A stretch of 64,000 nt of DNA. Origin: an uncultured Flavobacteriaceae bacterium. GTDB taxonomy: Bacteria; Bacteroidota; Bacteroidia; Flavobacteriales; Flavobacteriaceae. The position numbers were made by a program, and so were the translations under genes. Positions within the stretch are counted from its first letter, which is position 1. Each line of letters begins with the position of its first letter. Below the pieces are notes generated by a model. The model was not told the DNA's origin. It did not search any database and worked only from the letters and a program-made list of their open reading frames with translations. The DNA is taken from positions 1 to 64,000 of the forward strand of contig CANLWB010000017.1 in the NCBI GenBank assembly GCA_947494695.1, in the 5' to 3' direction. Below, one piece after another: positions 12,240 through 56,715 of the stretch.

Positions 12240-12269
12240 TTGATAAACTGTCTAAAGGTGTTATTTTTG
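12240..12269 (+). promoter_or_regulatory. Promoter of the helicase gene
   Basis: TTG at 12240-12242, a 19-bp spacer, then TATTTTTG at 12262-12269: a full match to the Bacteroidota -33/-7 consensus. Transcription would start near 12275, about 15 bp before the ATG at 12290, which decides the start codon of the helicase. Confidence 0.65.
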
Positions 12270-12289
12270 CACGTCACAAAATTTTAGAA

Positions 12290-13843: not shown

Positions 13844-13870
13844 CACATCTCATTTAACGAGGTGTTTTTG
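13842..13870 (+). terminator. Weak terminator after the helicase gene
   Basis: AACACatCTC-atttaac-GAGGTGTTTTTG, an imperfect stem with a short T-run overlapping the end of the gene. Confidence 0.45.
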
Positions 13871-13905
13871 TCTGTCTATTATGACAAAGTCCTTAAATTA
13901 AGCCG

Positions 13906-13913
13906 TATCTTTG
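13906..13913 (+). promoter_or_regulatory. -7 promoter element for the EamA pair
   Basis: TATCTTTG matches TAnnTTTG and lies 17 bp before the ATG at 13931. It falls inside the longer upstream open frame and so argues against the start at 13862. Confidence 0.5.
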
Positions 13914-13930
13914 AGCTAGCCATTTGCACT

Positions 13931-15680: not shown

Positions 15681-15709
15681 TCTTAAGTTAAAAGTTTTGC
15701 CTTATATCG
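15654..15709. terminator. Bidirectional-looking hairpin overlapping the EamA 2 stop codon
   Basis: CGGTATAAGGCAAAAC and GTTTTGCCTTATATCG form 16-bp arms with one mismatch around a 24-bp loop that contains the TAA stop. No long T-run, so termination strength is doubtful. Confidence 0.4.
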
Positions 15710-15758
15710 AATATGACATCATTAATCGTGATACATTAATGAAAGTTAACCTAGTATG

Positions 15759-16451
15759 TTAGTCAATTTTAATTAATTGAGAATTCTCTCCCAGAACTTC
15801 CCTAACAACATCGGCATTACCTTTATAACGAAATATACAGTCTTTCTTTGCTTCAATATCAATGGTATTATTAACCGTCATATTAGCTTCGCATAAAGCG
15901 AGCATCTCTATCTTTAGATCGTCAACCTCCAAATTATATCCTTGAATTTTAGATTCAGCAAAGAGGTTTACAGTCACTTTCTTTGCCGAACCAGATATAT
16001 TGGCGTTTTTTATTATATTGATATCCAGATTGTTTACATCAATATCACCATTAAAAGAGCCTCCAGAAATTTTGAGGTAATCTGCAACTAGCGTATTTTT
16101 TAAATGAACGGTCGATGAACCACTAATGTGTGTTATAGATTTCGTTGTGATATGTACATTTAAAGTTTCATTGTCCTCTATTGCATTACTATCATTGCGC
16201 TTTATGTCCAATAGACCATTTTCTATGGTCACTTCTACTGTGCTTTGTAGGTATTCGTTAGCCTCTATTTCAATAGACTCTTCGGTATCAGAAAACGTTA
16301 TATATGTAGTAATGCCATCGTCTATTTTAACCGATGAATAGTCATTAACAGGAACCTCTTTAAAAGTAACTGTACTGTAGTCTACGCTACATGATGATAA
16401 TATAACAGACGAGATGAATGTTAGAAGTATAAAAGATTTGAGATGTTTCAT
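15759..16451 (-). CDS. Head-GIN (DUF2807) lipoprotein, copy 2 of the operon
   Basis: About 230 residues. A lipoprotein signal (MKHLKSFILLTFISSVILSS followed by the lipobox Cys) precedes a domain of repeated short beta-strands (SVKIDDGITTYITFS, then IEIEANEYL and so on), the pattern of the head-GIN/DUF2807 beta-helix adhesin-like fold. Start at MKHLKSF; an upstream ATG 24 bp earlier would add a non-signal extension. It is the last gene of the ECF sigma operon and paralogous to 17422-18147, each preceded by a paralogous barrel-like gene. Probably an exported surface or periplasmic protein tied to an envelope response; biochemical role unknown. Confidence 0.75.
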   Translation of the reverse strand: MKHLKSFILLTFISSVILSSCSVDYSTVTFKEVPVNDYSSVKIDDGITTYITFSDTEESIEIEANEYLQSTVEVTIENGLLDIKRNDSNAIEDNETLNVHITTKSITHISGSSTVHLKNTLVADYLKISGGSFNGDIDVNNLDINIIKNANISGSAKKVTVNLFAESKIQGYNLEVDDLKIEMLALCEANMTVNNTIDIEAKKDCIFRYKGNADVVREVLGENSQLIKID

Positions 16452-16525
16452 TGTTATTATTTTATAGAGATTCACTTTTATTTTGTGTGAAAAATTAATA
16501 TTAGAATTTGAAGTTATTTATTGCA

Positions 16526-17215
16526 TTAATTTTCTACGGTATCTTTTTTTATTTTTTTTATATAACGTTTACTTTCTATGTTAAAGACACCAACCTTAAT
16601 GCCAAGACCAGCAGAAAACCCGTTTATTCGTGTTAGATTGTAGGCAGGTTTAAAATTCACTTTTCCAGAAAACCTGTATTTTATTCCAGCCTCTAACTGC
16701 ACATACCTGTTAACATTGTAAAGCGCGTTAATACCAGGTTCTACAACGGGAAGTACTTTCCATTCGTAATGGCCATTTTGACCTCTTATTCCTTGTCTTA
16801 GAGATATTCCACCACCTCCAATAAGTAACGGAAGTGACATATTTATTTTAGATTTACTAAAAAAGATTGGTTCTATATGGAGACCTCCATATAATCCATT
16901 AATACTTACGCTATTGTTACCGTATTCCGCTCGCGCTTTAATGTCTTTTGGAGTTGAGAAGAATCCAACCGTAGCGAATCCAACCTCAAGCTTCCTGTTG
17001 GCAACGTATGCAACCTTAAAACTATAGGATTGCGTTTGAGTGTTGTCGGCGAATTTTTTGGCGATAGATCCATAATGCGCACCAAAGCCCAAATAAACAC
17101 CATGCACAACGTTTTTTCGGTCATTGAACTCTAGGTAATCAGATGATTCCTGAGCAGATACATTGTTTAAAAAACAAAATAGTAGTAGTAAAATAAAGAA
17201 ATGAGAGTACTTCAT
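16526..17215 (-). CDS. Outer-membrane barrel-like protein, copy 2
   Basis: About 229 residues with a signal peptide (MKYSHFFILLLLFCFLNNVS, cleaved after SAQ) and alternating beta-strands ending INGFSAGLGIKVGVFNI, consistent with a small 8-stranded outer-membrane barrel. Paralogue of 18393-19049: both contain YxEFNDRKNxVHGVYLG near the N-terminus and GLHxEPIxFSKSKxNxSxP in the middle. Start moved three codons in from the first ATG to put the signal peptide at the N-terminus. Part of the sigma-factor operon and paired with a head-GIN lipoprotein. Confidence 0.7.
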   Translation of the reverse strand: MKYSHFFILLLLFCFLNNVSAQESSDYLEFNDRKNVVHGVYLGFGAHYGSIAKKFADNTQTQSYSFKVAYVANRKLEVGFATVGFFSTPKDIKARAEYGNNSVSINGLYGGLHIEPIFFSKSKINMSLPLLIGGGGISLRQGIRGQNGHYEWKVLPVVEPGINALYNVNRYVQLEAGIKYRFSGKVNFKPAYNLTRINGFSAGLGIKVGVFNIESKRYIKKIKKDTVEN

Positions 17216-17421
17216 GTGGGACATTTTTTTTAATTATTTATTTATATAATCATCGACACAACAACATTCAAAAGGTTGCATTCAAAATGATATTTTTTTA
17301 GATATTTTATTTAAAATAAGGACGGTTATAAACGGTTATAATATGTGATTCTACAACACACAGCACCCCTTAGTATTTATTTATTAGTAAGAAAATATGT
17401 TTAAAAAGAATACAGGCAACC

Positions 17422-18147
17422 TTAATCTATTTGAACGAGTCGAGAATCGGCCTCTAGTTTTTCATTAACAATATCGGGGTCTCCTTTATAGAGCATGGTA
17501 CAATCGGCCACGGCCTCGATATCCATAGATTTGGTTACTGTTAAATTAGCGCTACAATCGGCCGACATTTTCATTATCAAATGTTCAACTGTTAAGCCAT
17601 AGCCGGAAAGCCTGGTGTCGGCCGAAAGTTTTGCGCTAAAGGTATTTACCGAACCATATAAATTAACATCCGAGTCTGCACTGGCGTCAAGGTATAAACG
17701 GTCTACATTTACTTCACCTGTAAGGAAGCTATCTGCTGAAATATATATTTTGGCCTGATCTCCAACCAAAGGGTCTTCAAGACGAATTTGAGAATTCCCT
17801 ATGGCAGAAATACTGCTAATCGACTTTGTTACAATGTAAATGTCAAGTGTTTTTTGTCCTTTAATATCTATATCCTTTTTAAGACGTATGGACAGTTTAT
17901 TATTTTCTTTTGTGGCAATAATATGATCATGTAAACGACTATTGGCTTCTATTTTAATAGACTCTTCGGTCTCCGAAAAACTAAGGTGTAAATTAAAACC
18001 ACCTGTAATAGATACTTTAGAGTAATCTGTAATATCCAAATTTTTTGTTGTTATTGAGGAGTCGGCTATTACTTTTCTGGTTTCGGGGTCACAGGACTGA
18101 AGCATAAGGCCACAGAGCGTCATGACAATGTAAATTGTGTGTTTCAT
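17422..18147 (-). CDS. Head-GIN (DUF2807) lipoprotein, copy 1 of the operon
   Basis: 241 residues. Lipoprotein signal MKHTIYIVMTLCGLMLQS-C, then short repeated beta-strand segments (VSITGGFNLHLSFSETEESI..., SISAIGNSQIRLEDP..., DVNLYGSVNTFSAKLSADTR), the head-GIN pattern. Shares the closing motif (DCxxxYKGDxDIVxExLxxxSxLxxID) with copy 2, so the pair arose by duplication. In flavobacteria such proteins often follow ECF sigma/anti-sigma genes, as here. Confidence 0.77.
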   Translation of the reverse strand: MKHTIYIVMTLCGLMLQSCDPETRKVIADSSITTKNLDITDYSKVSITGGFNLHLSFSETEESIKIEANSRLHDHIIATKENNKLSIRLKKDIDIKGQKTLDIYIVTKSISSISAIGNSQIRLEDPLVGDQAKIYISADSFLTGEVNVDRLYLDASADSDVNLYGSVNTFSAKLSADTRLSGYGLTVEHLIMKMSADCSANLTVTKSMDIEAVADCTMLYKGDPDIVNEKLEADSRLVQID

Positions 18148-18234
18148 TTTTTTAATGATGAGTGCTACGAATCCCTAATGGTTATTGGGACAGAACAAGT
18201 TTATAAATGTTAAATTGTTTGATGGGTATAAACC

Positions 18235-18396
18235 CTAATGATTCATATTTTTATTAAGTTCCATAACAGGAATCCATTGGAAGTTGATTGGATACCATTC
18301 GTTGGCTTCATTATCGATTTTTAGAAATACTTTATTATTATGAGAATGCACATAAAGTGAATTCAAACTATTTGTTTTTTTCTTGAATGTTGTCAT
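18235..18396 (-). CDS. Small 53-residue protein, translationally coupled
   Basis: Reads ATG at 18396 to TAG at 18235; the ATG overlaps the TGA of the preceding barrel-like gene in an ATGA. The product (MTTFKKKTNSLNSLYVHSHN... ending ELNKNMNH) contains KVFLKIDNEANEWYPINFQW and is soluble with no signal peptide. The four-base overlap and the absence of in-frame stops over 162 bp argue that it is a real member of the operon. No counterpart exists in the second barrel/head-GIN module. Function unknown. Confidence 0.6.
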   Translation of the reverse strand: MTTFKKKTNSLNSLYVHSHNNKVFLKIDNEANEWYPINFQWIPVMELNKNMNH

Positions 18397-19049
18397 TTTA
18401 CTTTCTTTTTATAACGATTTCTCCCCATATTAAAGACACCTACTTTTATTCCTAAACCTGCGGAAAACCCATTGATTCTTCGAATGTTATATTCAGGAGC
18501 AAAGTCTAATTTACTTGAAAGCCTGTATTTTACGCCAGTTTCCAATTGTATATATCGATTTATATTATAAAGTATATTAACCCCAGGTTCAACGACAAAG
18601 ACATGTTCCCAGTCATCATCTTCTATAACAACGGCTTCATCGGTATTATCTTCAAAGAGCACGGCAGCACCTCCTCCAATAAGTAATGGGAATGATAAGT
18701 TAACTTTAGATTTACTAAATAGAATGGGTTCTAAATGTAAGCCCCCATAAATCCCCCCAAGGTCTTTAATACTTCCATCGGACCCCATTCTGTTTAGATC
18801 CCCATAAAAGCCTACTGCAATAATACCAACCTCAAATTGCTGATTGGCCACATAAGCTACTTTAAAAGCAGAGGAAAAGCTTTCGGCTTTATCAATTTTC
18901 CCATAGCTAAGGTTTAAACCCAGATATACACCATGTACTGCATTTTTACGATCATTAAATTCTATATAATCATGAGATTCCTCCTGGGCATGCATACTGT
19001 TTTGAAAACAAAATATTAGTAATAAGAGAAACAAATTAAAGTGTTTCAT
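18393..19049 (-). CDS. Outer-membrane barrel-like protein, copy 1
   Basis: About 218 residues from MKHFNLFLLLLIFCFQNS (signal peptide, cleaved after MHAQ). Same layout and motifs as 16526-17215: YIEFNDRKNAVHGVYLGLNL, GLHLEPILFSKSKVNLSFPL, and the C-terminal INGFSAGLGIKVGVFNM. The upstream ATG at 19136 would add 29 residues with no signal character and was not used. Probably a small outer-membrane barrel regulated by the sigma factor of the operon. Confidence 0.7.
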   Translation of the reverse strand: MKHFNLFLLLLIFCFQNSMHAQEESHDYIEFNDRKNAVHGVYLGLNLSYGKIDKAESFSSAFKVAYVANQQFEVGIIAVGFYGDLNRMGSDGSIKDLGGIYGGLHLEPILFSKSKVNLSFPLLIGGGAAVLFEDNTDEAVVIEDDDWEHVFVVEPGVNILYNINRYIQLETGVKYRLSSKLDFAPEYNIRRINGFSAGLGIKVGVFNMGRNRYKKKVK

Positions 19050-32798: not shown

Positions 32799-34121
32799 AT
32801 GACAAATCTTATGAATTTATTTCAATTTTTTAACCTAAAAAAAACTACTGTAATGGCTCTTGTTGCATTGAGCTTGTTTAATTTGAGTTGTGATAGCGAT
32901 GATCCTCCCATGGACGAAAATCCGGATGGCGTAGAAACCCCTATAACAAGTTCAGTTAATTTTGAAAATGCCTTGATTAGAACGTTTCTATTATCTGAGA
33001 TAGAAGCTAACCACCCAGAGAAAACGACAGTAAAACAACCTACAATGCTTGATGGTGTGCCTCAAAATATGGGGAAAATTACCATAAAACTTGCGCCTAC
33101 TAGTGTTTCAAAGTTTAGCCTTAAGCAAGTAGACTTTGATACTTCAGAGTTTAGTATTTCCCCACAAGTAGGAGAACAAAATATTATTGCCGGAAAACCT
33201 ATAATCTATACCATTACTCCTGCTAAAGATCCCTCTGTTACCTTACAGTATGAGGTTAATGTTATTGTGAAACCTATAGATCCAGCAGATGAGAAACTTG
33301 CTATGAAGACATTTGGTTTTTTAATATCAGATAATGGTGAGAGTGGAATTAACTCCGATGTGTTTAGTGCAGAAATTAGAGACATAGGAGGTTTCTATCA
33401 AAGATATGATACAGCTGTCGTTATGTCTGTTCCAGATGGTACTAATTTTTCTAACCTTGTGCCTTACATTGAGTTTGAAGGAAGTTCGATTGCGTATACT
33501 ACCAATGTCGATGGAGATGATTCAGATTATAAAGAATTTACGGCAGGAACCTCTATAGACTTTAAATATCCAAATATCGTTGCCTTTAAAATATATAACA
33601 GTGATAAATCGAGGTTTCATAAAGTAGTTGTTTATGTAGATATTGAGAATCCTATCGTTTTCGATAGCCCAAGTGTTACACTTAACGATGGAAAAATAGT
33701 GACTACAGGTGGTATTGATAATTATGATAATGTAATAGAATTCACAAACAAAGGAAATTACCCTATAAAAACTTCTAGGTTGAATGCATCTGAGGCGGAG
33801 GTGATCGAAACACCAGAAGCGCAGCCTAGATTATATTATTCTCCTATTAGTTTAAGAAAGGATAAAGACGAGTTACACACTGGTGAAAAAGGGAGGTTGG
33901 CACTTACAGCTAATTTTCCATTTACCCTAACCGGAGAACCAGGTGCAGGAAGCGGTATCGTTGCGAAATCATATGTTGTAAAAGTTCAGTTTAAAACGAT
34001 GCTTAGCTCTGATGCCATAAAGGCTTTTTCAACAAGTAATAATTCGAGTAATATAAATTTTGAGATTTATAATCCCGCTGAGATTGAAATCAAGGCAAAT
34101 GTATATGTTGAATATAATTAA
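32799..34121 (+). CDS. Tandemly duplicated lipoprotein, copy 1
   Basis: 440 residues. Signal with lipobox (MALVALSLFNLS-CDSDD, from residue 19), so the mature protein is a lipoprotein exposed to the periplasm or surface. The body has several ~80-100-residue beta-sandwich segments (TPAKDPSVTLQYEVNVIVK; YKEFTAGTSIDFKYPNIVAF then KIYNSDKSRFHKVVVYVDIE), similar to the DUF5018/BACON-type domains of Bacteroidota surface lipoproteins. Nearly identical to copy 2 (34997) over the first two thirds and diverging toward the C-terminus (from ~residue 300), as for proteins whose C-terminal face is under changing selection. Upstream: four 21-bp-phased boxes; downstream: a terminator. Confidence 0.75.
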   Translation: MTNLMNLFQFFNLKKTTVMALVALSLFNLSCDSDDPPMDENPDGVETPITSSVNFENALIRTFLLSEIEANHPEKTTVKQPTMLDGVPQNMGKITIKLAPTSVSKFSLKQVDFDTSEFSISPQVGEQNIIAGKPIIYTITPAKDPSVTLQYEVNVIVKPIDPADEKLAMKTFGFLISDNGESGINSDVFSAEIRDIGGFYQRYDTAVVMSVPDGTNFSNLVPYIEFEGSSIAYTTNVDGDDSDYKEFTAGTSIDFKYPNIVAFKIYNSDKSRFHKVVVYVDIENPIVFDSPSVTLNDGKIVTTGGIDNYDNVIEFTNKGNYPIKTSRLNASEAEVIETPEAQPRLYYSPISLRKDKDELHTGEKGRLALTANFPFTLTGEPGAGSGIVAKSYVVKVQFKTMLSSDAIKAFSTSNNSSNINFEIYNPAEIEIKANVYVEYN

Positions 34122-34996: not shown

Positions 34997-36316
34997 ATGA
35001 CAAATCTTATGAATTTATTTCAATTTTTTAACCTAAAAAAAACTACTGTAATGGCTCTTGTTGCATTGAGCTTGTTTAATTTGAGTTGTGATAGCGATGA
35101 TCCTCCCACGGACGAAAACCCGGATGGCGTAGAAACCCCTATAACAAGTTCAGTTAATTTTGAAAATGCCTTGATTAGAACGTTTTTATTATCTGAGGTA
35201 GAAGCTAACCACCCAGAGAAAACGACAGTAAAACAACCTACAATGCTTGATGGTGTGCCTCAAAATATGGGGAAAATTACCATAGAACTTGCGCATACTA
35301 ATATTTCAAAGTTTAGTCTTAAGCAAGTAGACTTTGATACTTCAGAGTTTAGTATTTCCCCACAAGTAGGAGAACAAAATATTATTGCCGGAAAACCTAT
35401 AATCTATACCATTACTCCTGCTAAAGACCCTTCTGTTACCTTACAGTACGAGGTTAATGTTATTGTGAAACCTATAGATCCAGCAGATGAGAAACTTGCT
35501 ATGAAGACATTTGGTTTTTTAATATCAGATAATGGTGAGAGTGGAATTAACGCCGATGTGTTTAGTGCAGAAATTAGAGACATAGGCAGTTTTTACCATA
35601 GATATCATACAGCTGTAGTTATGTCCGTTCCAGATGGTACTAACTTTTCTAATCTTGTGCCTTACATGGAGTTTGAAGGAAGTTCGATTGCGTATACTAC
35701 CAATGTCGATGGAGATGATTCAGATTATAAAGAATTTACAGCAGGAACCTCTATAGACTTTAAATATCCAAATATCGTTGCCTTTAAAATATATAACAGT
35801 GATAAATCAAAGTCGCATAAAGTAGCAGTTTATGTAGATATTGAGAATCCCATCGTTTTCGATAGCCCAAATGTTACACTTAACGATGGAAAAGTTGTAT
35901 CTTATAATAATTTCTATGATAATGTAATAGAATTCACAAACAAAGGAAATTATCCTATAAAAACCCCAGAGATTAAAGTATCGGAAATTGAGGTGATCGA
36001 AACAGCGGAAGCCACACCTAGAGTGTATTATTCTAGTATTAGCTTAAGAAAGGATAAGGACGAGTTACTTACTGGAGAAAAAGGGCGTTTGTATATTGGA
36101 ACAAATTTTCCAGGGAATTTTACGGGAGAACCCGGTAGTGGTATAGGTACAGTTATAAAACCATACGTACTTAATGCAAAGTTTAAAACCATGCTTAGCC
36201 ATGATGGCATAAAGGCTTTTACCTCTAATAATAATAGCTCGGTTAATATAGATTTTGATATTTATAATCCCGTTGATCTTGAAATAACAGCAAATGTATT
36301 TGTTAAATATGATTAA
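34997..36316 (+). CDS. Tandemly duplicated lipoprotein, copy 2
   Basis: 439 residues, same start, signal and domain plan as copy 1. Differences cluster in the last third: after ENPIVFDSPNVTLNDGK the two proteins differ at many positions (for example SYNNFYDNVIEF against TTGGIDNYDNVIEF) but keep similar length and the same closing motifs (LSxDxIKAF, then NANV-like ends). Likely a surface-exposed pair undergoing diversification. Its downstream terminator and further ~180 bp are also duplicated. Confidence 0.75.
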   Translation: MTNLMNLFQFFNLKKTTVMALVALSLFNLSCDSDDPPTDENPDGVETPITSSVNFENALIRTFLLSEVEANHPEKTTVKQPTMLDGVPQNMGKITIELAHTNISKFSLKQVDFDTSEFSISPQVGEQNIIAGKPIIYTITPAKDPSVTLQYEVNVIVKPIDPADEKLAMKTFGFLISDNGESGINADVFSAEIRDIGSFYHRYHTAVVMSVPDGTNFSNLVPYMEFEGSSIAYTTNVDGDDSDYKEFTAGTSIDFKYPNIVAFKIYNSDKSKSHKVAVYVDIENPIVFDSPNVTLNDGKVVSYNNFYDNVIEFTNKGNYPIKTPEIKVSEIEVIETAEATPRVYYSSISLRKDKDELLTGEKGRLYIGTNFPGNFTGEPGSGIGTVIKPYVLNAKFKTMLSHDGIKAFTSNNNSSVNIDFDIYNPVDLEITANVFVKYD

Positions 36317-37244: not shown

Positions 37245-38711
37245 ATGGATGACCAAGCACTCCTTACCAAAAAGGGTCATACAACAATGACTCCAGATGC
37301 TTTTATTTCAACAATTAAAGAACTACCCGAAACACTTGAAGCCAAAGATGTGGGGTCGAATATTTTGGCTCCTTTGTTTTCTTATCTTATTACAGAACCT
37401 TCAAAATACCATGAAGGCTGTGAATTACTTCAAAACAAACTGCTGGATCTAACCATAAAAACCGCAGTAGAACATACATCTTATTATTCTAAAGTGGTTC
37501 CGCATCTTGAAATTTGGGATAAAACCAGGTTAAACGAGATCCCCACATTAAATAAACAAACGCTTTATCAAAATCAATCAGGCATATTGTCAAAAGTGAC
37601 CACCTTTGGCTTTGTTACATTTACTACAGGAACGACCAAGCAGGCCCCATTACTTATAGAAAGGTCGCAAGAAGAACAATTATATCTTCAGAATTTTTTT
37701 TCCATCCTACAATCTGGGATGTCGCAGTCCAATATGCTAAAACCATTAGGGATTGTAGAAGGCTCTATGAATCACGGTTCTGTTTTAAGACTACCTGGCA
37801 TCGGATATAATTTCATGATCGAATTAACCAAGGATTACGGGGTCATTAGAACAGCGTGGTTATTACAAAATGGATTTAATTTTAATGGCATTGCACCTAA
37901 AGTGAGTCAGTTGAATACCACCGTAATGGGATTGAGCTATTTACACCAGTATTTAACAGAAAATAATATTGAAATTCCGGAAGATCAACTTAATTCTATT
38001 ACAGTTTTTGGTTGGCCAGTTCCAAAAAGCCGACGTCAAAAATTTGAAGACTATTTTAACGTAAAGATTAGTGATAACTATTCAATGTCTGAAATGTTCG
38101 GTGGCGCCAAATACTGCCATAAGTGCGATGGTTATCATTTTGATCCGTTTGTCATTCCAGAATTAATAGATTTAGAAACCGGTGAACCATTACAGGAAGG
38201 AACAGGAGAGTTGGTTTTAACCCCTCTTTTTCCGTTCACCCAACGTTTTGTTCTCTTAAGATATCGTACCGGAGATCTTGTAGATGCCTTTAGGGTAAAC
38301 TGCGATAAAGGAATGATGGTTTATAAGATTAGAGGACGTCTTAAGCGATGTGTTAAAATGAATAAAGACCTGTATTTCGGAGAAGCCGAAATAGCCAAGG
38401 CTATTGATGAAATTGAAGAACTTAACAGGGCATCTACCGGATTTACCATTTTCGCAGATAATGATAAAAATAACTGGCCCTTGTTTAAAATGGTTAAAAA
38501 TGGGGCGCAGTTTGAAATTTTAGTAGAATTAAAGTTCGATCCTCAGGACAATCAAATGAAATCTAAAGAGATCTCTAAAAGCATATACGAGAAACTACTT
38601 TTAGAACTTCCTCAATCGGTAACCCATTGGATACAACAACATCCAGATGACTTTAAAATAACATTAAAACCTCCTCATAGTTTCGATAAAAGAGACTATT
38701 GGAATTTATAA
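37245..38711 (+). CDS. PaaK/CapK-like adenylate-forming enzyme
   Basis: 488 residues of the ANL superfamily, phenylacetate-CoA ligase-like branch. TFTTGTTKQAP is the phosphate loop, ISDNYSMSEMFGGAKYCHKC resembles the core motif of PaaK/CapK enzymes, LLRYRTGDLVD is the A8-like hinge with its Asp, and KIRGRLKRCVKM contains the expected Arg/Lys. Activates a carboxylic acid as an acyl-adenylate, and possibly a thioester. The substrate cannot be read. The Met at residue 15 (MTPDAF) is an alternative start. First enzyme gene of a closely packed cluster: 16 bp to the PurC-like gene. Confidence 0.82.
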   Translation: MDDQALLTKKGHTTMTPDAFISTIKELPETLEAKDVGSNILAPLFSYLITEPSKYHEGCELLQNKLLDLTIKTAVEHTSYYSKVVPHLEIWDKTRLNEIPTLNKQTLYQNQSGILSKVTTFGFVTFTTGTTKQAPLLIERSQEEQLYLQNFFSILQSGMSQSNMLKPLGIVEGSMNHGSVLRLPGIGYNFMIELTKDYGVIRTAWLLQNGFNFNGIAPKVSQLNTTVMGLSYLHQYLTENNIEIPEDQLNSITVFGWPVPKSRRQKFEDYFNVKISDNYSMSEMFGGAKYCHKCDGYHFDPFVIPELIDLETGEPLQEGTGELVLTPLFPFTQRFVLLRYRTGDLVDAFRVNCDKGMMVYKIRGRLKRCVKMNKDLYFGEAEIAKAIDEIEELNRASTGFTIFADNDKNNWPLFKMVKNGAQFEILVELKFDPQDNQMKSKEISKSIYEKLLLELPQSVTHWIQQHPDDFKITLKPPHSFDKRDYWNL

Positions 38712-47106: not shown

Positions 47107-49236
47107 CTACTCTTTAACAATCTTTTTATTTATAATACGACCTGTTTTAGTATTTTGAGCTTCCAAAATATAAATTCCGGGTTGAAGCCCTTCAAGGTTT
47201 ATAGTACTTCGTTTTTGAACATCTTTAAGACGGTTCAGTAAAACAACTCTTCCAGTTAAGCTTACAACTTTCACTACAGTATGTTCTAAGCTTTGGTTAC
47301 TGGAAATAGTTATAGCCTCGGTAGCAGGATTTGGAAAAAACCTGAATGCTTCGTTTGTAAAATCTTCATTTTTAGTTAGTGGATTTCTAGAAAGTGCTGT
47401 CACAGTACTACTACAGTCTGGCTGAGTGTCTGAATTACTAAAATATAGTGTGAATCCACTTGTTTTAGATACCATAACAAAATTATCCGAGTCCATAATA
47501 ACCCAATAAACACCGTCTAATCCCGCAATGCCCGTACCTGAAAATGTTGCATCGGGCTGTGCTGTGTTAAAATTGATGGTAAGACTATTGCTTAGGTCAA
47601 TGTACCAGTTGGGAGTACCATTGTTGGTATTAAATGAGAATTGATATAAGGAACTATTCTCCAAACTCCAATTGATGGTAAACGTCGTAACATTATTCAA
47701 GTCTGGTCCTCCAGTTCCTAATACATGAACGTTTTGATATGAGGTGTTTAAGCTTGTTAAAGCATCGGATGAAGGCGCGCCAAATGTACAGTTGTTAGCA
47801 CCTTCTCCTTCTGCTAAAATAGTCATGGTTACAGGCGCAGAATCCACCTGCCCATCGTTTACAATAAGCGTTACCGTATAAGGTCCCGGTTCGTCGTAAG
47901 TGGTCGTTGGTGTAACTAAACTAGATAGTTCTCCATTCCCAAAATCCCAGCTGTACGATAGTGTATCACCGTCAATATCAGACGAATTGGCAGCATCAAA
48001 CTGCACGGTTAAAGGCGCTGGTCCTGACATGGTTGAAGCTGTAAAGCTAGCAGTAGGAGGGGTATTTGTATTGCCTCCAACAACATTAGGAATTAAAGGT
48101 GCCAGGTGTGGACTTAAAATGTCCATTTTCCATTGGTTTATACTCACCCAGTCGTCTTTTAAGATACCTCCGGTATCACCAGAGTTTGGATTCATAGTCC
48201 AAAAGGTCCAGGAATAAATGTCTCCCATAAAATTCATCCATTCGGTGAACCAAGTATAGGCAACAGTATTGCTTTGGTCTTTAATTCCAAATTCACCAAT
48301 AAATAGGGGAGACGTGTTATTTTCGTATAAATAGTGAAAATTCTCCTCCCAAATATCTGGCATATTACCAGGAAAACTTGATGCTTCGAACCAATCTTGC
48401 GGTGCGACTTCCGGACCGTATTCATGTGCTGAATAAAACAGTTTACTTGGATCGGATAATTGTACCGGGTATTGGGCAGCACCTTTAAGCTGTCCACCCC
48501 ACCAATAGGAGTCACCTTCAAACTCACCAACACCTTCCACGATGATTAAAACATCAGGGTGTGCAGCTAGAATTGCATTACCACATCGCTCGGCAGCTTT
48601 ATTCCAATCTGTGCCAGGGCTACTATCTCCCCAGGTTGCACCATGAGGTTCGTTGTTAATATCCATAGCAACTACAGCCGAAAAGTTTTTGTAACGATTC
48701 GCCATAAATACCCAATCTTCAATCCATTGTTGTTCAGAAAACGTATCCGTGTACCACAAGTCTTCGTTTAAATAGCCATCTGCAGCTCTTGAATGGTTGT
48801 CTAAAACAATTTTTATATTGTTCTCTTGACACCAATTCACCACAACATCCATGAGTTCAATAGGTTTTGTTAATGTACCCTCCACCTCATTCATTGGTGA
48901 AACTCCAGTATAAGGATCAGAACCATATGAATTTATGTTTATTGTTGCGCCGGGGTTTAGCATTTCGTTAGTCCAGGGAACTCTTATGGTATTAAAACCA
49001 AGATCCTTGATCTGTTGTAAAACACTTTTCGTATCTCGAATCCAAATACCATGAGGACTATACAAGGACGTTTCAAAACCAAACCAGTTTACACCAGTAA
49101 GGCGCACCTCTTTACCTGTTGAATCGAATAATTTATTTCCGGAAACAGATAAAAAGTTTTGCTGTTGAGCATGCAGATTTGTTACGAAACAAATAAAGCA
49201 TGTCATCCAGAACATTTTATATTTAAAATATTTCAT
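47107..49236 (-). CDS. GH5 cellulase with PKD, shared module and T9SS sorting domain
   Basis: 709 residues. Signal peptide to ~23 (CFVTNLHAQ). GH5 catalytic domain ~25-385: NWFGFETSLYSPHG, FNTIRVPWTNEML, VVAMDINNEPHGATWG (acid/base Glu in NEP), FYSAHEYGP and PLFIGEFGIKDQ (nucleophile Glu). PKD domain ~392-475 (PTASFTASTMSGPAPLTVQF). The ~125-residue module shared with the GH48 and GH9 proteins at ~480-610. Sorting domain from ~630 (FRFFPNPATEAITISSNQSL ... NKKIVKE). An endoglucanase or related beta-1,4-glucanase exported by T9SS. Last gene of the cellulase locus, 15 bp after GH48, so co-transcribed with it. Confidence 0.9.
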   Translation of the reverse strand: MKYFKYKMFWMTCFICFVTNLHAQQQNFLSVSGNKLFDSTGKEVRLTGVNWFGFETSLYSPHGIWIRDTKSVLQQIKDLGFNTIRVPWTNEMLNPGATININSYGSDPYTGVSPMNEVEGTLTKPIELMDVVVNWCQENNIKIVLDNHSRAADGYLNEDLWYTDTFSEQQWIEDWVFMANRYKNFSAVVAMDINNEPHGATWGDSSPGTDWNKAAERCGNAILAAHPDVLIIVEGVGEFEGDSYWWGGQLKGAAQYPVQLSDPSKLFYSAHEYGPEVAPQDWFEASSFPGNMPDIWEENFHYLYENNTSPLFIGEFGIKDQSNTVAYTWFTEWMNFMGDIYSWTFWTMNPNSGDTGGILKDDWVSINQWKMDILSPHLAPLIPNVVGGNTNTPPTASFTASTMSGPAPLTVQFDAANSSDIDGDTLSYSWDFGNGELSSLVTPTTTYDEPGPYTVTLIVNDGQVDSAPVTMTILAEGEGANNCTFGAPSSDALTSLNTSYQNVHVLGTGGPDLNNVTTFTINWSLENSSLYQFSFNTNNGTPNWYIDLSNSLTINFNTAQPDATFSGTGIAGLDGVYWVIMDSDNFVMVSKTSGFTLYFSNSDTQPDCSSTVTALSRNPLTKNEDFTNEAFRFFPNPATEAITISSNQSLEHTVVKVVSLTGRVVLLNRLKDVQKRSTINLEGLQPGIYILEAQNTKTGRIINKKIVKE

Positions 49237-49251
49237 TTTTTTGATTTAAAA

Positions 49252-52200
49252 TTACTTCTTGACTATCTTTTTATTCGTTTTCACTCCGGTTTTACCGTGA
49301 GTTACTTCTAGAACATAAATACCAGATTGAAGGGCGTTAATATCCATTACTTTTCGTGACTGAGCATGTTCTATAGTAAAAGATTTGACTACCCGACCGT
49401 TAAGACTAATGATTCTAACTTTAGAATGCTGTAAGTCTGTGTTACTGGATAACGTTACGATACCTTCTGTTGGGTTAGGGGAAAACTTCACAATACTCTC
49501 TGCTAACTTTTGCTTTTCTGGAAGTTTTGCAGATTTTCTACTGATAGTCGAACTGGCAGGCGATGTGTTTCCTCCAAAAAAGAACCCATACTCGGCATTG
49601 GCAAGAGCGATTTCTATTTGTGCCCAACTTCTGTGATAATTCTGAGTAAAGTCTTCACCAGAATTATAATCTGATAAGAGTCTACTGTACTCGGGATCGT
49701 TTGCATAATTAGAACGGATATCCAGGAAAGAAGCTCCCGAAGTAATTTGATCTCCATTTGGCATAGTTCCATTAAATCCACTAGGTATGTAAACTTCCTG
49801 TTCAAATATCCTTTTGAAATCGCCTCTCGTTTCAGGACTTGATAAGCCTTTATCATCTCTATATTTAGTCCACATTCGATCCAGTACCTCTTTAGCAAGA
49901 TCTCTAGATGCTGTATCTAAGGTTGCATGTTTTTCTGTGGCAGCAGCATAGTAAATTAGTGCTTTGGCCATAGACGCAGCAACTCCTAAATCCTTACCAT
50001 AGTCTGTTATCGTAACATTTAGATTGCTATTCGCTCCAGGAGAACTAGGATTCCAGGTGTCTGGTTCTCCTGTCCATTCCAAAGTAGCAGGAATTAAGAA
50101 GTCGTCTGTTCCAACCAGTTGAACGGCACTTTTAACCCAGGTTGCCCATTTATCCATTAAATTTTTGGCTGTCGGGTCGTTTGTGATATAATAATATTCT
50201 GCAACACGCTCCATAGACCAGGCTTGCCATCCAAACCAAGTTCCACTTCCAGGGTCATGGTATACGGGGTCATTATCGTAGGCCATATCATAGAATGTCG
50301 ATTTCCCCGCTGGATATGTACTATAATTACCATTCCAACTATTGGTTGCTCCTCCAGCAATAGCGCCTTCATCAGATTGTAACCAGGTATAAAATTCCAT
50401 TTGTCTTTTTAAACTTTCTGTCCAATCGGTTACACCGTTTTGTGACTTTGGCTTCAACTCGTCAATTTGTGTTAGCGCATAAGCGGCTATAGGATTTTGA
50501 TATCCAAAATGACAATGGCTAGAGCTAATTCTAAACGCCCAGGCAGCCGATGTATCTACGGCACCACCCCATGAGATGTACCAGGACATCAAATAATGTG
50601 CACTATTGTATCCTTGACCAGCGCCAGTAGTTGCACTTTGCACACCCAATGGTTTAAAGTATTTATCAAACATAGCAAGTCTTAAGTAATCCCCCATTTT
50701 AGATGCTTTATCAAGCAAGTCTGTACTAATGGTAGATTCTTGTTCGTTGGCATATTGCATTGCCCAATACATGGCCTGAACGGCTCTGGCATCCGCATCC
50801 GGTGCACTGGTATAGCGCCATTGCTTTGAATAGTTTTGATCTACTGTAAATAGTGGCAAGTAACCATCAGGGCCTCCCCAATTAAAGGCTTCCCAGGATG
50901 GGTGCGGAACGGTTTCAAAAACAGATTCTTGTTCTCCTCTTTGAAATGTATTAATATACGAAGGTGTACTAACGCCATCACCTCTGTTTCCATAACCGTA
51001 GAAGTTATCGTTATCTAATAACCAGTGCATTTGGTAAACATCTGATCCATAAGCCGCAGTAAGATCAGAAGATACAGGATCTTCTCCAACTGGAGCATTA
51101 AATAGTAATGGTGCTGGATAATTTTCCGGTAAAGGGAATTCGCTGGCATATGCCGCAGGACTAGAAGGGTCGTATGCCGAATTCGTTGGCTGGTCTAAGT
51201 TTGTAGGAATGATAAATTGCTCGATGGCATCCCAAACATCTGTAAGTGGCTCCCAGTCTCTTGTAATTCTTCCGTTCATAACTTCTAACCATACCCAATA
51301 AGAATACAGCTCACTTGTAGATTCATGACCGTAATCTGGAGCCTCAACAATTAGTGTTTCTATAGAATGGTGAGGTGATCCATCTGCACTGAAATAACCA
51401 TTTGCAGGGTCGTAGAATTCATCTCTAATTTCGATAAAACGATCAATGTATTCATTATTAGGAGGACAACCAGGACAGCCGCCTCCAGTATCGGTTTTGT
51501 TTACGGTAATGGAATTAGACAGGTCGAATTCACCTGTTAAATCGTTGGTGCTATTTCCAATGGTAAGTCCAGTAATAACGCCATTATAGCTTAAATGCCA
51601 TATTAATGCCGTACCGGGTGATTGTGTGTCAAAATCAACAAGGTCTGGATTGGTTGGTAGCGCTATGATGCTATTTTGTGCATCTGTAATCACCCATTGA
51701 GAGCTATCTCCATCATTATCAGATAAAGTAATTCCAGATACATTATCCGGTGTTCCATCGCCAACAGTAAAAGCGAAGGGCCCTCCAGCTATAACGCCAC
51801 CGTCTACATTTGGATTATTCACGCCACAATCGGGAGGTGTTGACGACGCACTAAAGTATATGGTAAAACCACCGGTTTTAGACACCATAACAAAATTACC
51901 AGTATCCTCGGTTACCCAATAAGAACCGTCTAAACCAGTAATTCCGGTATTTGTGAAAGTTATTTCGGGCTGGGATGTATTAAAACTGTAGGTGAAATTA
52001 TTTCTTAAATCTATATACCAATTTGGAGTACCATTATTGGTATTAAATGAAAATTGATATAGTCCATTATTATTTAAATCCCAGTTAAGGGTAAAAATAG
52101 TAACATTATCCAGGTTAGGTCCTCCGGTTCCCAAAACATGAATATTTTGGTAGGCCGTATTTAAATTAGGTAATGAACTTGGTCTAGGGGTATCAAATGT

Positions 52201-52311
52201 ACAATTTTGAGCATACAAATTCGGTGTTAGAGATACTAGAAATAGTATCAGTGTTATAATACGCCTCCGCAAGAGCGTATTTGTTTTGCGTTTTTTTATG
52301 TTTTCTTTCAT
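49252..52311 (-). CDS. GH48 reducing-end cellobiohydrolase with T9SS sorting domain
   Basis: 1019 residues. Signal peptide to ~35; shared ~125-residue module at 36-165; a second module ([20 protein letters not shown]...) at ~168-275; GH48 domain ~285-930; sorting domain at ~940-1019 ([20 protein letters not shown] ... NKKIVKK). The GH48 call rests on [20 protein letters not shown] with the general-acid Glu in [54 protein letters not shown] and [15 protein letters not shown], which follow the CelS/Cel48F pattern closely. GH48 enzymes are processive exo-cellulases, key to clostridial and actinobacterial cellulose breakdown. I do not know of GH48 as a normal Bacteroidota enzyme; see findings. 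Confidence 0.92.
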
Positions 52312-52458
52312 TATTTCGTGTTTTAAAAATTAAATGGATGATGTTCACTCTACCCTGTTGAATTCCATTTGGACTAAGTTGCATAGCCAATCTTAAACAT
52401 TCACAAAAGGTGAAGTTTATCAACAAATATAAAGCGTCCCATGAACCATGGGTAAAGC

Positions 52459-52496
52459 ATCCAGGAGAATTTATAGGTTTGTCAATTCTCCTGGAT
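52459..52496 (-). terminator. Intercistronic hairpin between GH9 and GH48
   Basis: ATCCAGGAGAATT-(12)-AATTCTCCTGGAT, a 13-bp perfect stem just after the GH9 stop, without a strong T-run on the minus strand. It may be a partial terminator or a processing/stability element setting different GH9 and GH48 levels. Confidence 0.6.
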
Positions 52497-52522
52497 TAAG
52501 CCATAGTTAGTCTGTTAGAACG

Positions 52523-55450
52523 TTAGTTTTTAACGATCTTTTTATTCATGATGACCCCTGTTTTTGTATTAAGGATTTCCACGATGTAGACACCAGGTTT
52601 TAAGCCTTCAAGACTAATAGCCTTTTTATCCTGACGACTTTTAATATTATCCATAAAAACAACTCTACCGGTAAGGCTTGTTACCTTAATTATAGAGTGC
52701 TGTAAGTTTGTATTACTGGAAAGTGTTACAAGGCTAGATGTGGGGTTAGGGGATAGTTTTAAAACATTAGTACTAGGTTTTTTATTCTTAGACATTGTTG
52801 CTAAAGCCACTGTACATACAGGTGGTACTGCCGAGTTGCTAAAGTATATAGCATATCCACCTGTTTTAGAAGCCATAACAAAATTTCCTGAATCTATAGT
52901 CACCCAGTAAGCTCCGTCGAGTCCAGCAATACCGGTACCTGAAAATGTTGCTTCCGGTTGTGGTGTATTAAAACTATATGTAAGGTCATCTCTTAAATCG
53001 ATGTACCAATTTGGCGTACCATTGTTGGTATTGAAGGAAAATTGATATAACCCGTTATTGTTCAAGTCCCAATTAATGGTAAAAGTCGTAACATTATCTA
53101 GGTTAGGACCTCCAGTTCCAACGACATGTACATTATCAAAGGCGGTATTAATACCAGGCAATGCCGTAGCAATAGGGGTTCCAAACCCACAATCTCCACC
53201 ACCTTCAGGTGTTCTAATTACAGTAATTGAATTTGAAAAATCGCGATCTCCTGTTACGGCCGAAATGTTGTTTCCAACAGCAAGACCATCTATGGTATCA
53301 TTATAGCTAAGGTGCCATATAAGGCACGTACCAGGCTCGGCAGTATCGAAATTCACATCTTCTGGGTTTTCAGGTAAACCTAAAATAATGTTCGAGGCAT
53401 CTGTTACAACCCATTGCGAACTGTCACCATTAGTATTAGTTAAAGTAATACCAGAAACATGATCTGGCGTACCATCACCAACGGTAAAGCTAAAAGGACC
53501 TCCTGAAATAACGCCACCATTTACGTTAGAACCTTCTCCCGGTTCGTCACCAAATACAAGTACACCATTGTCATAAACAGGAATATTAGTACTTTCAATT
53601 TCAGAGCTTCCATTCATACCCTGAGCAGACCAGTCATTTGCAGTGTCGTATGGTACTCCATTTTGAACTCTAATATTAATTTGAGTTTCTCGTCTAAATT
53701 GAGGATCTCCTATAGGAGCTATTTGCTCTCCTGCTAACGAAACTTCCATATAGTAGATATTATTAGCGGCATCCCAAAGTTTAATTTCAGAGGAACTATT
53801 TCCTTGAACCGAGTTAAGTGTTATGTCATAGTCGGCAATAGTAAAACCTTGTTCTACACCTTCAGAAATATCAAAGAAATATCTATAAGATAAGTTATCT
53901 GTTACTCTGGCAGGCCAGGCGGTTCTATTTTGAACCAAAATTTTTACAGTACTACCATAGGCATTATCACTGTTAAATTTAGAGAACGATCTAATTTCTG
54001 CTCTGGTAGGGGTCTCTTCAACAGGAAAACCAGTTAATGGGTCTCCCCCAAATTCATCATACATTCTTACAAGGTTTCCTGTAAAACAAGCGTTGTAATC
54101 ACAAGCCACCTCATTAGCAATGAAATCCTCGCGATTGTCTTCAAATTGGTCGTTTGCTTCTGCAGGGCCTCCAACAAGTGCTCCATAAAGGGTATGACTT
54201 GGCAAAGCTGGTTTACCCGGCACACTATTTCCCCAAGTGCCATGAGCCGATCTATGGTGTGAGTTATTTGCTGGATCATTTCCAAAACCAATCATGAAAC
54301 TTCTGTTTAACGGGTTGTCTCCTAAAGCGTAGTTAACCTGATCTACAGCAAAGTCATGATATTTTGTTTTGTTCGCTGTACTGGTAGGCACCTTATCGCT
54401 ATAAATAAATGCTAAAAACGAGGTGTTGGCAGCATAGCGTAGTGATCCCCATTGAATGAGGTGAGCCTGGCCTCCTGGACTATACGTAACGCGATCTCCA
54501 TTAACACCACTGGTCCAAAAGTCAAGAAAACGCTCGGCGTCTTCTTTATACTTTTGTTTATCTGTTAATTGAGCTAATAAAACATAAGAGGCATAGCCTT
54601 TATCGTCCCAGGACGTTGTAAATTTATAGGCTTTAAGAGGGCCTTGACCTTGAGTCCCCAAGTTATCGTATTCTAACTCGGCTTTGGCCAGGTATTCGGG
54701 GTTATTAGTTGCTCGATACATCCAAATTGCTCCCCAAACCAGTTCATCATTATAACCATTAAAGGATCTATAAAATGCTGCGGCATCTGTAATAGACTCA
54801 GAGTATACACCTCTATAGGTATCTGCGAAATTATACAGTTGTTCAGCATGTGCTATTAGGGTTTCACTATATGCCGGATCGGAATCCTTAAAAAGCATAC
54901 TAGTGGCTGCCATTGCCGCTGCTGTTTCGGCGGCCAGTTCAGTTCCTGGGTTATTAGCATCTATCTTATAAGCAGGACGATCCATGACCATAACTTCAGG
55001 TGAGCCCCAAAAGGCATGATCGACACCACCAGTACCTACTTGTCCGTAAAATTCATTCGGAGCCGTGTGACACTTTATAAAATAATCTGTTACAAAACGA
55101 AGATTTCGTTTTAAAACATCCATTTGACCAGAGCGTTCGTAAGCGTCTTTGTAAGCAATTCCTCCCCAGGCCAGTGACGTTACACTAAAGGCCATAGGGA
55201 ATCCAAATTTAACGTGATCTCCGGCATCATACCAACCTCCAGAGAGGTCTAATCCAACATCGGAACCATCATCAAGAGCCGAGTCTCCCCGCCAACTTAC
55301 ACGGTTCCATTCTGGAAGTGATCCAGATTGTTGCGCTTCGTAAAAGAAAAACGATTTCTGCAAGGCTTCGCCATAATTTTTTTGCGCAAAGCTACTAGCG
55401 AAATTAAGGTATAGCAATACAGCCACACCGTGGATTATAAACTTTTTCAT
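52523..55450 (-). CDS. GH9-CBM3c cellulase with shared modules and T9SS sorting domain
   Basis: 975 residues. Signal peptide to ~22; GH9 domain ~24-455 with GGWYDAGDHVKFGFPMAFSV (catalytic Asp in DAGD), SHHRSAHG (His) and FIANEVACDYNACFTGNLVR (proton-donor Glu). CBM3c-type module ~470-625 (NRTAWPARVTDNLSYRYFFD; TQINIRVQNGVPYDTANDWS). Then the [20 protein letters not shown] module ~645-745, the shared ~125-residue module ~755-880 and the T9SS sorting domain. GH9 with a following CBM3c is the architecture of clostridial processive endoglucanases (Cel9G/CelI) and Thermobifida E4. First gene of the cellulase run. Confidence 0.92.
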   Translation of the reverse strand: MKKFIIHGVAVLLYLNFASSFAQKNYGEALQKSFFFYEAQQSGSLPEWNRVSWRGDSALDDGSDVGLDLSGGWYDAGDHVKFGFPMAFSVTSLAWGGIAYKDAYERSGQMDVLKRNLRFVTDYFIKCHTAPNEFYGQVGTGGVDHAFWGSPEVMVMDRPAYKIDANNPGTELAAETAAAMAATSMLFKDSDPAYSETLIAHAEQLYNFADTYRGVYSESITDAAAFYRSFNGYNDELVWGAIWMYRATNNPEYLAKAELEYDNLGTQGQGPLKAYKFTTSWDDKGYASYVLLAQLTDKQKYKEDAERFLDFWTSGVNGDRVTYSPGGQAHLIQWGSLRYAANTSFLAFIYSDKVPTSTANKTKYHDFAVDQVNYALGDNPLNRSFMIGFGNDPANNSHHRSAHGTWGNSVPGKPALPSHTLYGALVGGPAEANDQFEDNREDFIANEVACDYNACFTGNLVRMYDEFGGDPLTGFPVEETPTRAEIRSFSKFNSDNAYGSTVKILVQNRTAWPARVTDNLSYRYFFDISEGVEQGFTIADYDITLNSVQGNSSSEIKLWDAANNIYYMEVSLAGEQIAPIGDPQFRRETQINIRVQNGVPYDTANDWSAQGMNGSSEIESTNIPVYDNGVLVFGDEPGEGSNVNGGVISGGPFSFTVGDGTPDHVSGITLTNTNGDSSQWVVTDASNIILGLPENPEDVNFDTAEPGTCLIWHLSYNDTIDGLAVGNNISAVTGDRDFSNSITVIRTPEGGGDCGFGTPIATALPGINTAFDNVHVVGTGGPNLDNVTTFTINWDLNNNGLYQFSFNTNNGTPNWYIDLRDDLTYSFNTPQPEATFSGTGIAGLDGAYWVTIDSGNFVMASKTGGYAIYFSNSAVPPVCTVALATMSKNKKPSTNVLKLSPNPTSSLVTLSSNTNLQHSIIKVTSLTGRVVFMDNIKSRQDKKAISLEGLKPGVYIVEILNTKTGVIMNKKIVKN

Positions 55451-55827: not shown

Positions 55828-56715
55828 TTATTCTAAAAAGTGCTCCTGAAAATTAGTGACAAATTCATGAATATATTTTTTATTTCTATTCTCGGTTTTC
55901 ATCACCAAATAATGGTTTCTTTTAAGGCCATATCTGCCAATTCGCTTAAAAATGATGTCCTCTAAATTTTTAAATTCTTTTACCTGCCATTTTGGTACAC
56001 ACATAATACCTAAATTAGCTTTAACCATAGATAGAGAAGCTTCAGTAAAGGGAATAGCCGATATGTTCTTGGGTGTAATATTACTTAGTTTTAGAAAATA
56101 TTCATAGACCCAGACACTTTCTAATGGAAATGCGTTTATTAATAAACGATCATCTAAAAAATGACCGGCCTCAAGGTACTCAAATGTACTCAAAGCATTT
56201 TCATAATGTACTAAAGCAAAAATTTCATCTTCAAAGATTTTAATACATGTTAACTCTTCTGAAGGAGGGATGTAAGTTACCAATGCCATATCAATTTCAT
56301 TCGATAAAACTTGAGAAATGGTTTTACGAGAGGATTCGAGGGCTAAATTTATTTCTATTTGAGGATATAGAAATCCCATCTTTTGAATAAAAGATGGAAT
56401 ACAGTGACGGAAAGATTGGCATTCCACACTAAATTTAATGGACCCTTTAGATCCCTCTTTTATACGTTTAATACTTTCAAAGCTTTCATTTATTGAAGAG
56501 AATAGCTTATTGGCCAGCTTGTACAATTCTTGTCCTTCATGCGTTAGTTCCCACTTATTTCTACTTCTAAGAAATACTTTAAACCCTAACCGTTCTTCGA
56601 GGTCTTTTAATTGATGACTGAGTGCTGATTGTGTTAAAAATAATCGCTCGGAAGAATTGGCAAGATTGCCCTCTTCGGCAATGGTTTTTATGAGTCTAAA
56701 GTATTTCAATTCCAT
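55828..56715 (-). CDS. LysR-family transcriptional regulator
   Basis: 295 residues. N-terminal winged HTH: MELKYFRLIKTIAEEGNLAN, LTQSALSHQLKDLEERLGFK and VFLRSRNKWELTHEG, the LysR signature. A periplasmic-binding-like effector domain follows from ~90 (GSIKFSVECQSFRHCIP). TATCTTTG on the minus strand ends only ~4 bp before its ATG, so the mRNA is nearly leaderless. It faces away from the racemase gene, the usual LysR target arrangement; a role in cellulase control is possible but not supported by position alone. Confidence 0.88.
   Translation of the reverse strand: MELKYFRLIKTIAEEGNLANSSERLFLTQSALSHQLKDLEERLGFKVFLRSRNKWELTHEGQELYKLANKLFSSINESFESIKRIKEGSKGSIKFSVECQSFRHCIPSFIQKMGFLYPQIEINLALESSRKTISQVLSNEIDMALVTYIPPSEELTCIKIFEDEIFALVHYENALSTFEYLEAGHFLDDRLLINAFPLESVWVYEYFLKLSNITPKNISAIPFTEASLSMVKANLGIMCVPKWQVKEFKNLEDIIFKRIGRYGLKRNHYLVMKTENRNKKYIHEFVTNFQEHFLE

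Follow-up and report, generated by a model that had tools for sequence, protein, structure and literature searches.

A T9SS-tailed GH48 gene in a cluster of cellulase families in a Flavobacteriaceae genome, and its mostly fused relatives among Bacteroidota

A long-standing question, based chiefly on soil and rumen species, is by what means Bacteroidota break down crystalline cellulose when they have no known exo-cellulases. It is raised again by a gene in an uncultured member of the Flavobacteriaceae (assembly GCA_947494695.1, contig CANLWB010000017.1), located at positions 49252 to 52311 of the 64,000-nucleotide stretch that was analysed here (the window). A first-pass annotation had described the product as a full glycoside hydrolase family 48 (GH48) domain fused to a Por or type IX secretion system (T9SS) sorting domain, acquired by transfer and an oddity in this phylum; it had also noted that Cytophaga hutchinsonii is described as lacking GH48, in agreement with passages of a 2014 paper in which none was identified (PMC4189754; this and the other papers are cited for selected passages). 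The feature is real, but its rarity was overstated; of greater interest is the giant protein, resembling the cellulase CelA of Caldicellulosiruptor bescii, that most of the relatives found encode.

The GH48 protein and its gene cluster

The protein certainly belongs to GH48: the PF02011 model matches residues 288-912 over its entire length (model positions 1-619 of 619; 961.5 bits, E 2.6e-289), bearing out the full domain that had been claimed. It is the single GH48 of the host genome in a whole-genome profile scan (963.7 bits, no internal stops). The NCBIfam model of the exoglucanase CbhB matched the GH48 region with 861 bits, under its equivalog cut-off of 1950. A sequence search of the Protein Data Bank (PDB) gave 14 distinct GH48 sequences, of which the best (E 1.2e-268; 61% identity to the window GH48 domain) was 4l0g, presumably the GH48 part of CelA from C. 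bescii. Relative to 4l0g, the window domain has seven additional residues (one at the domain start and two at the C-terminal end) and lacks two; there are no larger loop differences, because no single gain or loss exceeds two residues.

The TSE motif reported in the first pass was located at residues 332-334. Its glutamate, Glu334, is invariant in all 59 rows of a GH48 alignment (what was left of 73 rows after 14 had been removed at a 96% identity threshold) that spans Bacteroidota, Chloroflexota, Pseudomonadota, Bdellovibrionota, Actinomycetota, Bacillota and one phage. By offset it corresponds to Glu55 of Cel48F, and it is presumably the general acid. Over these rows 110 positions of the window domain are invariant, including Glu323, Glu334 and Asp505, the first and last of which we take to have catalytic roles in the family. 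Judged by sequence, the protein is very likely a cellulase.

The order of the protein is putative signal peptide, UKD/CBM113, X, GH48 and T9SS type A tail, the tail, which had been claimed, scoring above the curated cut-offs of two models (PF18962, 46.6 bits against 27; TIGR04183, 41.4 bits against 23). No dockerin was found among Pfam or NCBIfam matches (E ≤ 0.01 for each), which fits the free, non-cellulosomal enzyme that had been proposed. The cellulosomal enzymes Cel48F and CelS are of the same family (PDB entries 1f9o and 8zu1 were matched, 8zu1 being 56% identical with TSE present in its row), but the window protein has no dockerin and instead has a T9SS tail and its own binding domain.

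The "local modules" of the first-pass annotation proved to be two, both shared with neighbouring genes; it had mentioned neither the UKD/CBM113 domain, nor the X module, nor the three-gene T9SS-tailed cluster described below. Residues 37-160 of the GH48 protein match residues 1-124 of 126 of PDB 9kvn (E 2.4e-41 in the PDB search and 2.5e-43 in a separate comparison), the UKD of CelAly that was proposed as the founding member of carbohydrate-binding module (CBM) family 113 (PMC13235733). In the founding UKD, Tyr50, Tyr63 and Tyr64 are important for binding to insoluble cellulose, and Arg36, Lys100 and Lys110 may take part in its binding of alginate (PMC13235733). The three cellulose positions are Tyr, Trp and Tyr in all three window copies, which share 69-75% mutual identity, and are aromatic in 124 of 124 copies (three from the window and 121 from fetched loci); the UKD domains would accordingly be expected to bind insoluble cellulose. 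Of the alginate residues, Arg36 is replaced by Thr and Lys100 by Glu, Ile or Met in the window, where only Lys110 is kept, so these UKD domains are less likely than that of CelAly to bind alginate. By this criterion, which comes from the founding UKD and perhaps does not apply family-wide, all three basic residues are kept in none of the 124 copies, two in 19, one in 82 and none in 23.

The X module has no Pfam match and no PDB structure match below E 0.07. Its AlphaFold2 model (18 rows; mean pLDDT 94) has eight strands of at least three residues, and the best 50 of 300 hits in a fold search, mostly Ig-, cadherin- or FnIII-like, had query TM-scores of at most 0.49. Because the TM-scores are low and a confident PDB match is absent, X is called only a predicted beta-sandwich. 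Across the fetched loci there are 102 copies of X of at least 98 residues, including five consecutive copies in one locus (L028).

The GH48 gene is the middle member of a same-strand trio (GH9-CBM3, GH48 and GH5), and all three products carry a UKD and a T9SS tail (Table 1). The GH5 gene lies 15 bp downstream of the GH48 gene and the GH9 gene 211 bp upstream. The CBM3 of the GH9 partner is labelled CBM3c by its position after GH9, not by a subfamily test. The CelA-type arrangement of GH9-CBM3c and GH48 on one polypeptide is absent from the window, where these are two separate genes. The sole GH48, the sole GH9 and all three UKD domains (E ≤ 0.001) of the host genome (5.49 Mb, 77 contigs, 99.89% complete) lie in the trio.

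Table 1. Features of the GH48 gene and its surroundings in the window
Feature	Position	Strand	Basis
GH48 protein, open reading frame of 1019 aa, ATG start	49252..52311	-	translation, Pfam, NCBIfam, PDB sequence search
Putative Sec signal peptide (aa 1-35; basic N terminus, hydrophobic core, ending in LYAQ)	52207..52311	-	read from translation
UKD/CBM113 domain of GH48 protein, aa 37-162	51826..52203	-	PDB 9kvn match
X module of GH48 protein, aa 168-277	51481..51810	-	shared with GH9 neighbour
GH48 catalytic domain, aa 288-912	49576..51450	-	PF02011
Glu334 codon (TSE glutamate)	51310..51312	-	invariant in 59/59 aligned GH48 rows
T9SS sorting domain of GH48 protein, aa 945-1017	49261..49479	-	PF18962 and TIGR04183
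GH9 partner, 975 aa (GH9 - CBM3 - X - UKD - T9SS tail)	52523..55450	-	Pfam, BLAST
GH9 catalytic domain	54077..55375	-	PF00759, 508 bits
CBM3 module immediately after GH9, aa 494-570	53741..53971	-	PF00942, 41.4 bits
X module of GH9 protein	53198..53527	-	66% identity to X of GH48 protein
UKD/CBM113 domain of GH9 protein	52814..53191	-	75% identity to UKD of GH48 protein
GH5 partner, 709 aa (GH5 - PKD - UKD - T9SS tail)	47107..49236	-	Pfam
RNA hairpin in GH9-GH48 gap (perfect 13-bp inner stem at 52459-52496, no U-run after)	52444..52508	-	folding
LysR-family regulator adjoining the trio upstream	55828..56715	-	Pfam

Split and fused relatives

GH48 was found, with the host included each time, in 3 of 12 genomes of the host genus, in 4 of 299 genomes sampled from the family and in 4 of 395 sampled from the phylum (at E < 0.001; three of these were above the cut-off and the fourth was a 22-bit fragment). 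The GH48 proteins of genomes assigned to the host's family are 100% identical to those at loci of Flavivirga, Aquimarina and Tenacibaculum, in keeping with a host from the Flavobacteriaceae. A scan of contigs yielded 57 GH48 loci, including 46 from Bacteroidota, which is not an unbiased share because the search patterns were derived from the window protein and favour its close relatives. The Bacteroidota loci are mostly from Aquimarina, then Tenacibaculum, with single loci from Flavivirga, Reichenbachiella, Fulvivirga and an uncultured member of the Cyclobacteriaceae, and two from Flavobacteriaceae without a genus; a plasmid record of Persicobacter holds a further GH48 (61% identity). Most genomes sampled from the phylum lack GH48, which nevertheless recurs in some marine genera. 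The description of the window gene as an oddity is also contradicted by a 2024 survey that counts Bacteroidota among the GH48 phyla (PMC11238990) and by a 2023 paper with a table in which each of three Fulvivirga strains has a single GH48, entered under chitin (PMC10113389). Many close Bacteroidota GH48 proteins, which the first-pass annotation had said would refute it, do exist in genomes, but only family-level mentions were found in print. In the cited passages of the CelAly paper GH48 appears only in the introduction and reference list (PMC13235733), and no description of T9SS-tailed GH9-GH48 proteins was found in the open-licence literature as searched by title, beginning of abstract and selected passages.

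In 40 of the 46 Bacteroidota loci, GH48 and GH9 share one open frame of 1,694-2,355 aa, which begins with GH9-CBM3 and has PKD, UKD and X modules ahead of GH48. A UKD is present in 39 of these 40, a T9SS tail in 33 and a GH5 gene in the locus in 29. These orders were derived by BLAST with the window domains, which misses divergent modules, above all T9SS tails (found in 38 of the 46 loci). A Pfam check of four cassette proteins (from L032, L006, L052 and L045) and three neighbours confirmed the fused order and the T9SS tail in both Bacteroidota giants scanned (L032 and L006). The remaining six loci comprise three that are split like the window (L027, L029 and L030), a GH5-GH48 fusion (L052), one that starts at a contig end and so cannot be scored (L015), and the Fulvivirga locus (L043), which has no GH9 nearby. 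The split version in the window is thus less common than the fused one among the Bacteroidota loci found.

The window resembles C. bescii CelA (GH9-CBM3c-CBM3b-CBM3b-GH48) in combining GH9-CBM3 and GH48 without a cellulosome; it differs in having two genes, UKD and X instead of CBM3b, a T9SS tail, and GH5 as a third member. The fused marine relatives have the order of CelA, but their linkers consist of PKD, X and UKD, and most of them carry a T9SS tail. The Aquimarina enzyme CelAly, a GH5-PL31 protein that also has a UKD/CBM113 domain and a T9SS tail and whose homologs are mostly in Aquimarina, is likewise multimodular, but it couples a cellulase with an alginate lyase (PMC13235733), whereas the window trio contains cellulase families only.

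Other divisions of the same parts were noted. In L052 (6834-12044, + strand), GH5 and GH48 form one 1737-aa T9SS-tailed protein with a separate GH9-CBM3 neighbour, by Pfam. Between L018 and L025 two tandem GH9 types are swapped, such that the type fused to GH48 in one locus is a separate neighbour in the other.

That the split GH9 and GH48 genes are ancestral, and the giant enzymes derived from them by fusion, is a conceivable but rather doubtful history. Split neighbours also occur outside the Bacteroidota, in Hahella (L053), a member of the Cellvibrionaceae (L049) and Nonomuraea (L067), and the minimum of five fused/split changes over 28 scored Bacteroidota rows carries no direction; however, the unfused rows are few (the window, its genus mate G248, a further genus mate G303, L027 and L029/L030) and scattered among fused ones, and C. 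bescii CelA (PMC4195899) and the Chloroflexota loci L045, L050 and L051 (the first checked by Pfam), which also have GH9-CBM3 and GH48 in one protein, are fused too. Orthology of the UKD domains fits fission and fusion equally (16 of 32 either way). The Hahella pair is like that of the window in consisting of adjoining GH9-CBM3 and GH48 genes (GH48 61% and GH9 59% identical), but UKD, X and T9SS tail were not found in it by BLAST with the window domains.

The gap between the GH9 and GH48 genes of the window contains a predicted RNA hairpin (-27.5 kcal/mol, z -6.35, with 0 of 200 shuffles equally stable). A hairpin was predicted in four of five split loci folded (the window, G248, and the near-identical L029 and L030, the last three without a shuffle control), and not in L027. 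The hairpin possibly sets the transcript dosage of the two genes. No Rfam family matched the window at the gathering threshold.

Probable function of the cluster

With high probability, the GH48 protein belongs to a compact cellulase cassette, found in marine-type Bacteroidota and independent of a cellulosome, whose products are exported, held on cellulose by UKD domains, and similar in their action to CelA. The three enzymes, which may be co-transcribed, would be exported by Sec and then passed through the T9SS, with the type A tail leading to surface attachment or release; this is suggested by the tails and by the translocon gene sprA, the only T9SS gene searched, which was found in the host with SprA_N twice in one 2439-aa frame (contig C11). 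Shared UKD/CBM113 domains would hold the enzymes on insoluble cellulose. From what is known of their families, GH9-CBM3 and GH5 would open chain ends, along which GH48 would run, most likely as a processive exo-cellobiohydrolase and perhaps with a preference for reducing ends. Together the trio would do the job of the single-chain CelA of Caldicellulosiruptor. When celA was deleted in C. bescii, 15-fold less sugar was released from Avicel, and the exoglucanase activity of CelA was not made up for by any other secreted enzyme (PMC4195899).

Several observations weigh against this reading. No classical cellulose-binding CBM was found in the GH48 protein by the Pfam scan, and in the host genome scan there was no AA10 lytic polysaccharide monooxygenase and only one GH9. 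The hairpin could separate transcription of GH9 from that of GH48. The GH48 family includes chitinases (PMC11238990), and the three Fulvivirga strains with one GH48 each were cellulose-negative in vitro (PMC10113389). The Fulvivirga locus found here is from another species than those strains, and its GH48 is more distant (64% identity); neither a UKD nor a T9SS tail was detected in it by BLAST with the window domains.

It is accordingly worth considering that GH48 acts on chitin or on soft algal-wall beta-glucans, such that the trio would be an algal-wall system and not a cellulose system. The chitinases of the family (PMC11238990), the listing of the cellulose-negative Fulvivirga GH48s under chitin (PMC10113389) and the alginate binding of the founding UKD (PMC13235733) all point in this direction. 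It is nevertheless unlikely, given that the best PDB matches of the GH48 protein are cellulases, with 4l0g first, that the neighbouring genes encode GH9-CBM3 and GH5, and that two of the three basic alginate-binding residues are replaced in the window UKD domains while the aromatic cellulose face is present in every copy.

Descent, transfer and surroundings

A GH48 tree had been proposed as a check in the first pass. The tree made here (47 rows, 632 columns) recovered a distinct Bacteroidota clade, from a selection and not from all CAZy members: it omits the 14 rows dropped from the alignment, the phage and Oligoflexaceae rows and ten thinned Aquimarina and Tenacibaculum rows, and it holds few Firmicute or actinobacterial rows. 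The 31 Bacteroidota rows form one clade (support 100/96), within which 29 flavobacterial-type rows form another (100/100). The GH48 proteins of Fulvivirga (L043) and Persicobacter (L066), also Bacteroidota, are sister to the latter (100/96); they are 61-64% identical to that of the window and have an adjoining GH5 gene, but BLAST revealed neither a UKD within the protein nor a neighbouring GH9 gene. The flavobacterial-type clade includes Reichenbachiella, the inner place of which is unsettled, and the uncultured Cyclobacteriaceae member, in a fork made up mainly of Aquimarina (93/89). Because these rows nest in the flavobacterial-type clade, the GH48 gene seems to have crossed families.

The window pairs with its genus mate G248 (100/98), the GH48 domains being 87% identical, and G303, the remaining genus mate with GH48, groups with Flavivirga (100/100). 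Forcing the three genus mates together cost 79 log-likelihood units (approximately unbiased (AU) test, p 0.0051, for a grouping chosen after the tree was seen). At least two GH48 histories thus seem to be present inside one genus, since G303 groups with Flavivirga apart from the window and G248; GH9 and GH5 were not found within the 20 kb fetched around the GH48 gene of G303. In a tree of GH9 (32 rows, 22 of 54 having been dropped at 93%), the GH9 partners of Bacteroidota loci form one clade (100/99) with the window next to G248 (100/99). Transfer of GH48 among Bacteroidota is supported by these comparisons, and to this extent the acquisition by transfer that had been claimed stands (3 of 12 genus genomes; AU p 0.0051); no outside donor can be named, as AU tests with Bacteroidota sister to Bacillota, Pseudomonadota or Chloroflexota gave p 0.33, 0.294 and 0.131, none rejected.

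Recent acquisition of the GH48 gene from a Firmicute or an actinobacterium is highly improbable: the cassette is patchy in the genus and family samples, and the GC content of the trio (0.39-0.41) exceeds that of 41 other window reading frames (0.350 ± 0.026; five overlapping frames left out), but the GC content at third codon positions (GC3) is 0.29-0.32 against 0.293 ± 0.032, the window GH48 nests inside the Bacteroidota clade (in a tree with few rows from those phyla), and it is 45-61% identical to the Firmicute and actinobacterial rows compared. The GC excess of the trio sits in codon positions 1 and 2 and so reflects amino acids. A recent cross-phylum transfer detectable by composition was ruled out by GC3 at background. 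A clean empty site was also sought in two genus mates without GH48, G300 and G307; in both, the DJ-1/AraC pair located beside the trio is retained, with LysR matches of at most 25%, and because the LysR-side flank is not conserved there is no clean empty site in them.

The chances are about even that marine Bacteroidota have their own, separate equivalent of CelA, exported by the T9SS (GH9-CBM3, GH48 and GH5, bound by CBM113) that was spread by transfer inside the phylum and repeatedly re-cut as GH9-GH48, as GH5-GH48 or as three genes, supplying the exo-cellulase that surveys call lacking, with dosage in the window perhaps set by the hairpin. A marine clade whose T9SS-tailed GH48 mostly lies in a CelA-like giant suggests another answer to the old question, one open to testing, for the cellulose of seaweed and marine detritus, and the natural series of split, fused and re-fused enzymes permits a direct test of whether the covalent linkage of exo- and endo-cellulase matters. 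For the host itself a marine habitat is likely from its relatives.

The LysR-family gene that adjoins the trio is a possible candidate for its regulator. In G248 the LysR protein is 73% identical and encoded approximately 16 kb from the trio, a distance that disfavours a tight link. Elsewhere in the window, on the plus strand, three genes (32799-34121, 34997-36316 and 37245-38711) encode proteins of 439-488 aa without a Pfam match at E ≤ 1e-4; the first two look like a tandem duplication, because both match one site in G248 (49-51%). The host genome also has five GH3 matches and four GH5-family matches, one of which (G000:C10:171543-172187, - strand) has three in-frame stops and is probably a decayed gene.

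Beside the cellulase genes of the Aquimarina locus L029 there is a gene (12025-19014, + strand) for a 2,330-aa protein with cytochrome c and MauG/RoxA-like haem domains, CBM3, PKD domains, a UKD and a T9SS tail by Pfam, and long frames in L030, L018 and L015 resemble it in size and in PKD and UKD matches. Judging by these domains, it may be an extracellular redox partner directed at cellulose. Among 50,697 phage records, 17 encode GH48 (37-38% identity), all of them Erwinia phages, and in one of these (phiEaP8, L070) a gene with a GH5-like domain precedes GH48.

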